Assembly (NCBI GenBank): GCA_023091735.1
Contig: JALKBU010000100.1
Span: 1-64,000, forward strand
Source: Trichomonas tenax
Taxonomy: Eukaryota > Parabasalia > Trichomonadida > Trichomonadidae
Direction: 5' to 3'
Length of the DNA stretch: 64,000 nt
Numbering within the stretch: position 1 is the stretch's first letter; each line of letters begins with the position of its first letter. A model generated the notes under the pieces. That model was given only the letters and a program-made list of their open reading frames with translations, was not told the DNA's origin and made no database searches. The position numbers and the translations under genes are program-made. Positions 1,139-36,426 of the stretch are shown here, one piece after another.

Positions 1139-4100
1139 TCATTTGATGAGACTCTTAGCATCAGGAGTGATAGTCGTCTTCTTTTCAGGTGATCTCGATG
1201 ATGTGACTTTGATCAGATCTTGTTTGATTGGCGTTTCATCCAACAATCTTGAAGCGCGTAATGCCGAAAGAAGTTTGGCCCTTTCATCATCGAGAATCTT
1301 CTTTCTTCTTAAGTTCCATCTCTCGATGGACCTCATTTCATTGTCCGCCATGTTTGCAAACCCGATATATTTGTTCAAAACAACGTCATCGTAATTCGCG
1401 GTGAATGGCAATCGCGCGGACTTCGCCTTTGCCTCTGATTTGTTAAGTTCATGTTCGTGCTTCAAGTTATCGGCGACCTTTCTGAAGTCAGAGATTACCT
1501 TCTTCAGCTCACTGATTCTGTGATCTCTTTCAACAATGTGATCCATCGCTTTTGCGACTTGTTTCTTCGATGTTTCGAGCATCATATCTGACTTATGCTT
1601 GTTTCTCATTGCCTTGATGATCTCTTGTTTGATCTTGAAAACGTAGACATTGAGTTCGTGAATCTTGTCGTTTGCTTGAACGATTTCATTTGATTTATCT
1701 TGAATGATTCTTTCGAGTTGTTTGATTCTCTTTTCTAAGTTTTGCTCTCTTTCGACACGCGCGGATTTCGATGGAGGCAATGGACTGTTGACGATGACGG
1801 AGCCCTGTTTGGTTGGTCTCTCTATCTTCGGAGCAGATCTCGATGAATGAACGGCTGTCTTCGCTTCAGATGTTTCAACAGGTGTTGGGAACAAAAGTGG
1901 TTTCTTGTCTGTCAAAGGGGATTGTCCTGGATTCCTCTGTTTCACGTAATGCGTTATATAAGCAATGACTGATGACGATGTAACATCAACAGTTAACGGA
2001 ACGAGTAAATCAAAGTTAACAACATCTTCTTCTTTAGTGTTGTGAACATTTGGAGTGATTGGACGTGAAAATACTCCTTTTCTGATTGATGATTTCGCTG
2101 TTGTGACTCTGATACTTGAATTTGGTTTTGTTAGGACTTTGATTACTGTGTTCTTTGGTGTTTGGATCTTCGCTGTCGCTTGAGTGACTTTGTCGTCATG
2201 CATAAGTTGTGGCGTTGAGTTGAAGAACTGTCTTTGCTTCATTTCATGTCTTGAAATTAATGCAAAACCAACACTCATCTTTGTGTTTGTCTTAAAAACA
2301 GTGAAACATGGAACAAACTCCATTTTCCTGCTTTGTTCTTCTTCCTCTTCTTCTTTGACACTGACTTTTTCTTTAACACTTGATTTTTCTTTGCTTTCGT
2401 TTGGATCTTCTAAAATAATTTGATCTTTGAGTTTAACATTTTCGTTTTCAACATATTGCAAATCATTTTGTGCTTTGTTGAGTTCCTTCTTAGCAGTGAC
2501 AACGTCATCCGTAAGCAAATCAATATGTTTCTCTCGTTCATCTTCTGTTGCTTTCATTATCTTGAATATCTCTGATTTTTCGCATGTTTTAAGTTGCAGT
2601 CTTTGAACTTCGGTGATAGATGATTGAATTTCATCTCTAAGTTTATCATTTTCGCCTCTTGTGTTATCAAGTTCGTCTCTTAATCCTGCCATGAATTTCT
2701 CGCGTTCTTTGATTGTCTTATTCTTGTCATCAATAATGCTATTGAGTTTCTGTCCTTCTTTCTTGAGATCATGGATTGTTTTAGAGTTTTGATTTCTATA
2801 ATTGTCTAAAGCTGATTTTAAGATTTTCAGGAATTCACCGTTCTTTTCATTTGTGCGCTTAATGAGTTGCTTTAATTGTGCTCTAATTCCCGCAATTTCC
2901 ATTGAAGCAGCTGCGACTTTCTTTTGTATTGTTCCTAAATCAGGTCTAACCTTTATATTCTTATTTCTATTTTCGTTCTGAATCTTCATAACATCCAAAG
3001 CGTTTTCTGTGATTTGTATCATTTGATTAGGATTCGCTGGCGGCGGTGTTAGAAGCGCTTCGATGTTGAATTGACTGATTAATTGAACTTCACGCACTGA
3101 TTTGTAGATTTTAACAACAGTGTCTTGCTTCTGGTGTTCACCTTCTTTCGTTGGCGGAAGTTCTTTCGAAGCAGAGACTGCAATTTGATTCTGTCTGATG
3201 AATTCTTTTTGCATATCGGATATTTTGTTCTCCATGTGAGCCACATATTCATTATATTGCTTCTCCATATCTTTCAGAGCTTGTGCAGCTAAAACAAGTT
3301 TCTTCTGTAGTGTTGAGTTGTTTTCAACTAACTTAGATAGTTTTGGATCTTCAACTTTAACTTCTTCTGTGTTTTGAACTGCTGTTTCCACAATCGATGA
3401 TCTTCTCGGCGTTGTCTTTGGTGTTGTTGCTGCTGATTCAGTGAGAGAAGGATCAGCAATTGATGATCTCCTTCCTGTTGAATTGTTGCTTCTTGCACTT
3501 TGCTCTGCGCGTTGATCCTCAGCAGATAAATCGATTTGAAGCTCAGCTTTTCCATCTCTTTGCGTCTGAGGACGAGAGAAGTTGTTTGACTCTGAGATTG
3601 CTATTTCGGCCTTTTCTTCTTTCTCTTCAATCAGCTCATTATGGAATTGTGGATTGGAATCGTCCAATAAAAGATTTGTGAGATTATTCGAATCATCGAA
3701 GTTGTCAGAAAGTGTCATTAACTTTCTGCAAATTGGACACGAAATTATTGATGACATTGCGAGTTTGTGTTGGACATCAGAAGGTTCAAAGCCAAACAAG
3801 TGTTTGCAATGAACGCATTCCGCGTGCATAGAATGTGCATCGTTGTTATTGATGTTGAATAACTGCGAAGTTGTAATTTCCAATGATTTCAATGTCATCG
3901 GCATTTGTTCTGTTTTAATGGGAGTATTTGGTTGATAATCGAGTGTTTGCGTTCCTTTCTCATCGTATTGACTTCTTCTTGCTGCTTGGAGGTCTCTGAA
4001 TGAACTTGCACGTGAAACACTTGCTGAAACTTTTGCAGATAAAACAGCGATTTCTTTCTGAAGCTCTAAATTTTCGCGAGCTAAATCTCCCATTTTTACA

Positions 4101-34351: not shown

Positions 34352-34828
34352 TTATGGTTGGCGGAGATCAAGATGAGGTCGTCACCGATAACACCATGCT
34401 CTGACCTTCCGGCTGTAGTCTTTTGTTAAAGGTGATGCTAAGGTGTACGGATGAGCATAAGAAATGTCTAAAATTCGTCGAAATGTTATGATATGAAATT
34501 ACAAAAAACGAAGTAAATGCGAAATAATTATAATAATTAGATAGAAAATGAAAAGGTAGGTTCATGTTACGTTTAAGTTAAGAAGTAAAAGTTGCTACAT
34601 CAAGAGATAAAGTCGATTTAAGTTGAAAAATTTAAAATTACTTTTTCTCGAAAATTCCTCGATTAATGCATGTTATTTTCTTTACCATTGTTATCTATAT
34701 CCAATTATGAGTAATTTCGCAAGTTTAGTCGGATAATTTAGTTATATATAGACTAGTATATCGTCCTGTTTGATTAAAGGTTATAACACTTTTTAAAGAC
34801 GTGTCAAAACATTTTCTCATTTTAACTC
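34352..34828. other. Intergenic
   Basis: AT-rich spacer between the 5' remnant of the surface pseudogene and the hairpin cluster. No gene was seen. Confidence 0.45.
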
Positions 34829-34830
34829 GT

Positions 34831-34891
34831 ATTGATTTGCATATATTAATATTATAATTATCCCATACAATAAAATCATTGCAAAATCAAT
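34831..34891. repeat. Weak hairpin of the cluster
   Basis: attgatttgca (from 34831) pairs with tgcaaaatcaat (to 34891) with one bulge, around a loop of about 37 nt. It is included because it falls one pitch before the first strong hairpin. Confidence 0.4.
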
Positions 34892-34928
34892 GACTTTTAT
34901 TTAATTTTCTTATTTTCAAAATCAATTA

Positions 34929-35016
34929 TTTTGACAATTGACATGTTTCTTCTCCATAGCACCATCTACATATCTGCATTGGAGGAAATGGACAAGAAGC
35001 AGGTCAATTGTCAAAA
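34929..35016. repeat. Strong hairpin 1 of the cluster
   Basis: Arms 34929-34957 and 34988-35016 pair over 29 positions with two mismatches and one G-U pair, leaving a 30-nt loop. The arm begins ttttgacaattgac. Confidence 0.9.
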
Positions 35017-35071
35017 GCATTCGATCTAGAAATATAGTTAATCGTTATACTTCATTATGTAGGGTATGCCT

Positions 35072-35132
35072 CAAATATTTAGGCACTGTAGATGTAATTT
35101 TCGTGTTTGCTTGTGCCTGAATTAGGTAATTT
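35072..35132. repeat. Weak hairpin of the cluster
   Basis: aggcac (35081-35086) pairs with gtgcct (35113-35118). With a bulge, caaat upstream pairs with atttg downstream. The stem is poor, but it occupies the position expected from the pitch, perhaps as a decayed member. Confidence 0.3.
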
Positions 35133-35140
35133 GTCCAAAA

Positions 35141-35248
35141 TTAATAAATATCATCAAAAATGATCAATTTCTAGCACAAGCTCTCCAGAACATCGAATAT
35201 ATGGTGAATTTGTGCCAGAAATTGATCATTTTTGACCATATTTATTAA
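35141..35248. repeat. Strong hairpin 2 of the cluster
   Basis: Arms 35141-35178 and 35211-35248 pair over 38 positions with three mismatches, leaving a 32-nt loop. It is the longest stem in the cluster. Confidence 0.92.
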
Positions 35249-35271
35249 CAGAAAATTATAAACAGTAAATC

Positions 35272-35346
35272 GCTTTAGCTGTCTAATAGCATGACAAACA
35301 TGTGCTCACAAGCTATCTGTTTGTCATGCTATTAAACAGCTAAAGC
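35272..35346. repeat. Strong hairpin 3 of the cluster
   Basis: Arms 35272-35300 and 35318-35346 pair over 29 positions with one mismatch, leaving a 17-nt loop. Confidence 0.92.
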
Positions 35347-35386
35347 AAATATTTTAAATCGATGAATGAAATATTTCGATTCATAG

Positions 35387-35457
35387 CATTTTCTACGAGT
35401 CTCTGAGATTGTTAGGCCATCATATGTCTTAGCAACCTCAGAGATCCGTAGAAAATG
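35387..35457. repeat. Strong hairpin 4 of the cluster
   Basis: Arms 35387-35416 and 35428-35457 pair over 30 positions with two mismatches and three G-U pairs, leaving an 11-nt loop. The G-U pairs on one strand point to selection on an RNA rather than a DNA stem. Confidence 0.88.
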
Positions 35458-35507
35458 TTGAATTGTAAAATGAAATCGAATCAGAACGCTCTGAGCAAAT
35501 TTCGATA

Positions 35508-35578
35508 GCACCAACAGTCAACAAGCCATTGGATACGAAGAATAGCTTCGTATCCAATGGCTTGTTGACTGTTGGTGC
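35508..35578. repeat. Perfect 33-bp hairpin 5 of the cluster
   Basis: Arms 35508-35540 and 35546-35578 are fully complementary around a 5-nt loop (aatag). Confidence 0.95.
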
Positions 35579-35638
35579 CTTGATAATGATGTAATTGCGA
35601 GAATATCGAAGAAGTTGTGAATTTTATAACGGCAAACC

Positions 35639-35703
35639 ACTAGTTCTTCACTGGCTAGAGTAATACCTTCATTGATATCCCTCTAAATCAGTGAAGAACT
35701 AGT
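35639..35703. repeat. Strong hairpin 6 of the cluster
   Basis: Arms 35639-35653 and 35689-35703 pair perfectly over 15 bp. An imperfect extension with one bulge continues inwards to about 35668 and 35674. Confidence 0.85.
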
Positions 35704-36426
35704 AGAAAACGCATTATCAATTTTAATAACTTTCAAAATTTTAATAACGTACAAAAATTATCAAAATTATCAATAGTAGGAGAAAAATTTTGAAATTTAC
35801 TCAAAAAAATTAGTTTTGCCTATAATAACCTATATCAAAAATGAAGTTAATGTAGCAATTTAAAAATTAAGCAAACATCAAAAAAGCTTGAAAAGTAAAA
35901 AAGAAAGAAAAATATCCATTTTTATGTAAATGTTTCAACTTCCTTTTCTTAGCTTCCGTATGAACAAATTAGGCGGTAGTTGAGGTTTGAAAATAATTCA
36001 TAGCGATATATATACTTTAAATATTAGCTCAACTTCTTGGGAAATGGGAAGTGTTATCACTTTTGTTTGATTTTAAATTATAATCACACTTTAAAGTCTT
36101 CAAGTTAATATAACTTCCATTATATTCAATGGGGTTATCTGCTAGCTACCAAAGTTTTCAGCATGAGCTTGGCTTTGTTTGAGCAAGATATTTTTAGTAA
36201 ATGTACAATATGACATGTAAATACATTTTTTGTCGTGTTGTATCACAAAAAATCCGTTAACAATCTTTCCAAAAATATGAATGCAAAATATTCATAATAT
36301 TTTAAAAAATGATTGTTTGTATCTTTAAAATGCCTTAATTAAATTAATATTATAATAACTTGTGATAATAAAAGTAAAACGTGGGGATTTAATGTTTATA
36401 TAAACATACCACAAATTGGTGATGGC
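35704..36426. other. Intergenic, 3' side of the WASP gene
   Basis: AT-rich. A weak AT palindrome near 35731-35796 could continue the hairpin series but is not distinctive. No gene was seen. Confidence 0.4.

Follow-up and report, generated by a model that had tools for sequence, protein, structure and literature searches.

A transposed copy of a dispersed hairpin-array repeat in Trichomonas tenax

Introduction

In Trichomonas vaginalis, one report describes a class of small RNAs about 34 nt long that favour a 5′ U and links them to PIWI-like proteins; its available part leaves the contribution of Dicer to these RNAs open (PMC7845603). MicroRNAs were barely detected in the same species, according to the available part of a second report (PMC7844918). 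At the level of DNA, template switching by a polymerase yields homogenised arms and inverted spacers in hairpin-forming sequences, as set out in the accessible portions of two further papers (PMC8604942, PMC8794818).

Here we analyse a cluster of hairpins in the window, by which we mean the whole stretch of 64,000 nucleotides of Trichomonas tenax under study (contig JALKBU010000100.1, positions 1 to 64,000 of the forward strand). The original prediction, made from the letters alone, was of a unique locus of clustered microRNA-like precursors. We find that the cluster arose by transposition and represents one copy of a dispersed hairpin-array repeat, not a unique microRNA locus.

Results

A regular cluster of hairpins with unrelated arms

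The cluster consists of six strong hairpins and a weak one (arms of 15–47 nt; Table 1), and the seven centres are spaced by 116.4 nt on average (sd 10.6). Equal evenness was reached in 0.4% of 20,000 random placements with centres at least 75 nt apart. The predicted regular cluster of six to eight hairpins is thus confirmed with seven members, H3 being the weak one, and the perfect 33-bp hairpin with a 5-nt loop is H7; the hairpin placed at 34861 finds no support as a strong one, and the best local fold there has 10–13 bp and lies near 34885. The weak H3 has a fold energy of −19.8 to −21.3 kcal/mol on the plus strand and −8.7 kcal/mol on the minus strand. Ungapped hairpins with a score of at least 17 occur five times in the 64-kb window, four of them within the cluster (H2, H4, H5 and H7), and not once in any of three first-order Markov control sequences. 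When 115-nt units were compared in 21 pairs, the only notable results were a 12-nt match between H2 and H7 and the overlap of the units taken around H3 and H4. Beyond these the arms are unrelated to one another, in line with the earlier claim that they are not mutual copies. An Rfam scan of the window returned no family at the gathering score.

Table 1. Coordinates in the window of the mobile element, its ends and its hairpins
Feature	Position	Strand	Remark
Target site duplication, left copy, GTTTGATT	34768..34775	.	single copy at related sites L065 and L066
Left terminal inverted repeat, AAAGGTTATAACACTT	34776..34791	+	27 bp (34776-34802) common to three of four TIR relatives
Hairpin array, passenger part	34803..35773	.	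parts homologous to stretches at the 57 loci examined
Hairpin H2	34929..35016; arms 34929-34957/34988-35016	.	29-nt ungapped core of a longer stem
Hairpin H3, weak	35066..35127	+	near 35099
Hairpin H4	35141..35248; arms 35141-35187/35202-35248	.	47-nt arms, 87% complementary
Hairpin H5	35272..35346; arms 35272-35300/35318-35346	.	29-nt arms, 97%
Hairpin H6	35387..35457; arms 35387-35420/35424-35457	.	34-nt arms, 82% Watson-Crick
Hairpin H7	35508..35578; arms 35508-35540/35546-35578	.	33 bp, 100%, 5-nt loop
Hairpin H8	35639..35703; arms 35639-35653/35689-35703	.	15 bp perfect, gapped beyond
Right tail	35774..36064	.	common to TIR elements whose bodies differ from the array
Right terminal inverted repeat	36049..36064	-	AAAAGTGATAACACTT on the minus strand
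Target site duplication, right copy, GTTTGATT	36065..36072	.	read beside the right terminal inverted repeat

The array is carried by an element with terminal inverted repeats

The hairpins lie within an insertion of 1,289 bp (34776–36064) that is bounded by 16-bp terminal inverted repeats (TIRs) and an 8-bp target duplication. From left to right, the order is GTTTGATT, AAAGGTTATAACACTT from 34776, the array, AAGTGTTATCACTTTT up to 36064, and GTTTGATT again. The two TIRs (34776–34791 and 36049–36064) match at 14 of 16 positions, and the element holds no stop-free stretch longer than 61 aa. Its flank is a member of another repeat family, and three related copies of this flank, all of them paralogous repeat copies rather than the same site in another strain, are without the insert. 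In two of them (L065 and L066), 48–58 nt of the left flank and 197 nt of the right flank meet at a single exact GTTTGATT; in the third (L067), a match of about 180 bp to the left flank (84%) and one of 149 bp to the right flank (96%) meet at GTTTGATT with one mismatch. The original prediction had held that unrelated arms speak against a satellite or a single MITE; the cluster nonetheless sits in a TIR element with a target duplication and related empty sites, and the array recurs at dozens of loci. A second high-copy repeat surrounds the element (36064–36264, and 34742–34775 on the left); the 40 places scored among its 64 candidates are at least 90% identical, most with the same start base.

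Allowing up to two mismatches, the terminal repeat matched 149 sites and its reversed control 80, and among the matches listed there are at least eight convergent pairs of 692 to 4,356 bp, the window's own included. We examined four of the other seven pairs, two of which have perfect 8-bp duplications and two of which do not. All four share the right end, from 35760–35918 to 36063 or 36064, with the right tail matching at 83–92% over 149–308 nt, and three of them (L071, L072 and L073) have in common the 27 bp at 34776–34802. These relatives resemble the window element at the ends only, and the hairpin array is therefore a passenger. No transposase emerged from the four, the longest of which (L073, 4,356 bp) has no open stretch above 136 aa. 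Besides lacking any long reading frame, this 4.36-kb relative (C589:52593-56948) contains two inverted repeats of its own.

The array belongs to a dispersed repeat family

We searched the genome with H7 and H5 as baits, scoring 40 places of 52 candidates for the former and 40 of 102 for the latter. Every one of the 57 loci examined (L008–L064) contains sequence aligned to the array, giving 83 stretches of 64–94% identity after alignments shorter than 150 nt or above E 1e-10 had been left out; some of the 83 are pieces of one copy, as at L048. They form 13 groups at 86% single linkage. The array is a non-coding dispersed repeat that is found apart from the ends of the window element. Among the 57 loci, the right terminal repeat stands at the array end in L010, L012 and L050 only, three more weak matches to it lie away from the array end in L051 and L060, and the window copy is the only hairpin copy with both TIRs and the duplication. 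Upstream, an AT-rich block of about 950 bp is partly shared at 18 or more loci, a lower bound given the many loci that end there. When a 24-nt word of one arm was searched with up to three mismatches, H7 had 58 sites, H6 had 93 and H5 had 151, and the reversed controls had none. One H6-type 24-mer had no exact match in viral_contigs, which is a narrow test.

The loci contain 179 strong hairpins which, together with four in the window, fall into 16 families. Stem length, taken from the best hairpin of each family, ranges from 24 to 53 bp with one exception of 93, and several stems are perfect or nearly so while differing in sequence between subfamilies. Neighbouring hairpins less than 180 nt apart (n = 60, many of them homologous) are separated by 115.8 nt on average (sd 5.3), and a pitch near 115 nt is seen in other arrays too, including an unrelated one. 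About 1.3 kb upstream of the array in L057 there is a trio of hairpins of other sequence and similar pitch (L057:843-1173), one of which is also present in L014, L056 and L058. L044 contains a much longer palindrome, centred at 3502, with arms of about 81 nt that are unrelated to the other hairpin families. We found no account of hairpin arrays of such kind in trichomonads among the matches listed in the open-access literature.

Pairing is conserved and covaries between subfamilies

Stems are more alike than spacers, both in close stretches (92.0 vs 88.3% identity) and in distant ones (80.1 vs 71.6%); conservation of the baits H5 and H7 is biased upward, and H2, H4, H6 and H8 were not used as baits. 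With columns of fewer than 15 letters left out, double changes common to at least four stretches comprise 36 Watson-Crick, 3 G-U and 9 mismatched combinations, and the 213 private substitutions leave 124 mismatches, 41 A-C, 26 G-U and 22 Watson-Crick pairs. The array copies are related to one another, so that counts of cells in this and the following section are not independent.

We compared the pairs retained with 40 random placements of the same changes, using for each stem only stretches that hold at least 90% of its letters. Distant stretches retain more pairs than all 40 placements in six of six hairpins. In close stretches this holds for H4, H7 and slightly for H2, and in H5, H6 and H8 pairs are broken about as often as under random placement. 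Such a pattern suggests that pairing is kept in lineages that found subfamilies and decays in scattered copies, a contrast that we can only infer because older changes have had more time for correction.

The compensatory changes that had been proposed as a check are indeed found among the relatives, in the 36 shared Watson-Crick double changes and in the covariation of H6 and H5. For H6 (22 sequences) and H5 (16), from which copies at least 86% alike had been removed, none of 500 shuffles reached the percentage paired, the number of cells changed on both sides or the covariation score, with the caveat that related sequences may exceed shuffles without any structure; none of six slides for each hairpin reached these values either. 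Covariation is weaker on stricter measures: as many pairs with changes in both partners arose in 24 of 500 shuffles for H6 and likewise for H5, and as many further pair types in 34 of 500 for H6 and 5 of 500 for H5. The H6 set includes six rows added by hand (L056, L077, L080, L081, L082 and L084) and excludes, from the eight H6 sites probed, L078, L079 and the broken L083, an omission that favours pairing. RNAalifold, also proposed as a check, gave a weak consensus on mixed MAFFT alignments of all copies (best −9.6, for H7 on the plus strand), which does not favour one common structure. We read this as the result of mixing close, distant and truncated copies, and therefore counted pairs directly rather than through a consensus structure.

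Marks of change at the level of DNA

Of the 311 hairpin copies, 14 have a loop that is inverted relative to the window and 29 are ambiguous; the inverted ones are 7 of 65 in H7, 4 of 50 in H4, 2 of 71 in H6, 1 of 64 in H5, 0 of 46 in H8 and 0 of 15 in H2. In a tree built without H7, the window, L050 and L012 have one loop orientation and L008, L009, L014 and L019 the other; branch supports are moderate, the loops were labelled by eye, H7 of L050 is truncated, and among close stretches a minimum of 350 usable letters was required, which excluded L010 among others. L012 has a 1-bp deletion at mirrored places in both arms of H7 that is absent from the other close copies listed.

Private double changes number six, five of them Watson-Crick, where 1.09 were expected and slid controls yielded 1 to 4 (0 to 2 Watson-Crick). 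Four of the five Watson-Crick cases come from divergent stretches, perhaps small subfamilies, and one from a close copy. Counted by type, shared mispairs are split between 51 G-U and 45 A-C, and the H6 and H5 sets between 22 and 19 and between 19 and 17, respectively. Counted by cell, A-C is ahead in close stretches (202 vs 173 G-U), and G-U is ahead in distant stretches (438 vs 369) and in the H6 and H5 sets (50 vs 30 and 33 vs 24); H4 and H8 lean toward A-C. Such a balance does not clearly point to selection acting on a single RNA strand, although selection of this kind may still exist. The compensatory changes fit template switching in DNA at least as well as they fit microRNA function, because loops are inverted, a deletion is mirrored and the wobble pairs show no clear strand preference.

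Small-RNA proteins and matches to the arms

The earlier suggestion that trichomonads possess an Argonaute and a Dicer-like protein holds for this genome. A Piwi-domain search found one Argonaute gene with an 808-aa reading frame (L068:1447-3873, minus strand), in which Piwi and PAZ score over Pfam's cut-off and ArgoN just under it; it is PIWI-like, with Siwi as its best relative in the PDB. An RNase III search found one protein of 820 aa with two RNase III domains. Slicing by the Argonaute is doubtful, because two aspartates that we take to be catalytic are replaced by S and E in an alignment with Siwi read by eye. Among 7,995 candidates scored, two database relatives of the Argonaute were found, at 71% and 38% identity, and both, again by eye, are also without the first catalytic aspartate.

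The target search with the arms that had been suggested yielded no target family among the lone matches probed (11 for H6 and H5, two for H7). Ten of the 11 are part of further hairpins, and the remaining one belongs to a broken hairpin: for H6, six of seven are in hairpins and the seventh, in C718, is in the broken one; for H5, all four matches that were lone among the 100 listed of 151 are in hairpins, two of them imperfect. An eighth H6 site (C634), with both arms listed, is a hairpin as well. The two lone H7 matches outside the 57 loci are a truncated copy beside ankyrin-like sequence and a site in C841; at the latter (L076, C841:6027-6050), 21 of 24 letters of the arm are found in an ankyrin-like reading frame, a possible weak target. 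The ankyrin likeness was judged by eye, and an ankyrin origin of the arms was set aside, as C841 with its 3 mismatches in 24 was the one weak match. No conserved 22-nt block stands out in either arm of the hairpins. Several stems are near 34 bp, within a wide overall range.

Discussion

We consider it on balance probable that the window cluster is a TIR-element copy of a dispersed array whose arm pairing is maintained by template switching combined with selection acting on source copies. During replication, an arm that folds back would lead the polymerase to copy the opposite arm, correcting mismatches or flipping the loop; copies that seed new ones would keep their hairpins, and scattered copies such as the window's would decay. 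Switching from arm to arm, with upkeep in source copies, is favoured over selection on one strand of RNA because of the inverted loops, the mirrored deletion and the near-equality of G-U and A-C by type. Template switching alone may not explain the nearly perfect stems, because private double changes are few, and selection for hairpins in the source copies is what we infer in addition. The likeliest use of the hairpins to such copies would be as double-stranded RNA and the next likeliest a role in their own replication. Further observations count against this explanation: L010, L012 and L050 have the right TIR only, so that spread by TIRs is visible in the window copy alone; the close stretches of H4, H7 and slightly H2 keep more pairs than plain decay would leave; covariation is weaker on the stricter measures; and the greater conservation of stems than of spacers is unpredicted by unbiased conversion alone.

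A different reading, which we hold to be possible and put forward tentatively, is that the arrays are hairpin-RNA genes, in which the Dicer-like protein would process a long transcript and the stems, about 35 bp in length, would supply the PIWI-type Argonaute with guide RNAs silencing the repeat family or other genes. The genome does encode one Argonaute and one protein with two RNase III domains, several stems come close to the 34 nt of the T. vaginalis small RNAs (given in the available part of PMC7845603), subfamilies covary, unrelated arrays have a pitch near 115 nt too, and the lone H6 and H5 arm matches, with one broken exception, lie in further hairpins. Wobble pairs can be cited on both sides, since by cell G-U is ahead of A-C in the distant stretches and for both H6 and H5, whereas by type the two are about equal in all three comparisons, and the close stretches as well as H4 and H8 lean the other way. 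Against RNA genes of this kind also stand the tolerance of inverted loops, the lack of an outstanding 22-nt block in either arm, the lack of a clear target family and an Argonaute that, read against Siwi, seems to be without two catalytic aspartates. The original prediction of a classical microRNA cluster, with conserved genes of about 22 nt, agrees with the strong clustered hairpins and the Dicer-like protein. Such a cluster is nevertheless highly improbable given dozens of copies, several stems that are perfect or nearly so, arms with no conserved 22 nt, inverted loops, and the scarcity of microRNAs detected in T. vaginalis (in the available part of PMC7844918).

A further alternative is a decaying non-autonomous repeat in which the hairpins have no function, being relics of old inverted duplications with covariation inherited from template-switch correction. 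Private changes do mostly break pairs, H5, H6 and H8 of the close stretches retain pairs at the random expectation, and G-U and A-C types are about equal, all as plain decay would have it. We nonetheless regard this as unlikely: the even pitch, found in an unrelated array as well, and the nearly perfect stems that differ in sequence among subfamilies suggest continuing upkeep in source copies, as in the explanation by template switching and source-copy selection that we prefer.

A bolder proposal, of doubtful standing, is that the arrays might be mobile hairpin-RNA factories, in which multi-hairpin precursors of about 115-nt pitch with stems of 30–50 bp would pass through the two-domain RNase III and become guides of the single PIWI-type Argonaute. 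Were this true, a deep-branching protist would have a Dicer-fed PIWI pathway, whose spread and renewal would come from transposition and from template switching in which both arms are rewritten together. Processing of the stems, if it occurs, would also bear on a Dicer-type origin of the PIWI-linked small RNAs of T. vaginalis, as these are presented in the available part of PMC7845603. The array family is a natural experiment on the origin and persistence of RNA-like hairpins: one genome holds the same stems many times over, and among them occur paired changes, loops that have been flipped and a deletion mirrored in both arms. It warns that covariation by itself is no proof of RNA function in repeats.

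Among known systems, MITEs and other non-autonomous TIR transposons share with the window element its TIRs, target duplication and related empty sites, as well as the lack of any stop-free stretch above 61 aa beside a longer relative (4.36 kb, in C589). They differ in that the body here is made of six to seven unrelated hairpins that also exist elsewhere, and in that no autonomous partner was found here among the four TIR relatives examined. TvMULE of T. vaginalis likewise has imperfect TIRs and nested insertion in repeats, whereas TvMULE2 has duplications of 10–14 bp against the 8 bp of the window element, and TvMULE has a putative transposase where none was found for the window element (as described in the accessible part of PMC2725143). 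Quasipalindrome template switching, in the portions of the reports available, involves the same homogenisation of arms, inversion of spacers and compensatory changes, and what is different here is that these occur in many-hairpin arrays within a dispersed repeat family (PMC8604942, PMC8794818). The hairpin-RNA loci of Drosophila are alike in being hairpin loci able to feed RNA interference, according to the available parts of PMC10317233 and PMC10292708; next to them, the window array is known from DNA sequence alone. Finally, the 34-nt small RNAs and putative piRNA clusters of T. vaginalis go together with a PIWI-type Argonaute and an RNase III enzyme, as do the arrays of T. tenax, and those clusters, in the available part of the report, were defined from small-RNA reads, whereas the arrays described here are defined by their hairpins (PMC7845603).
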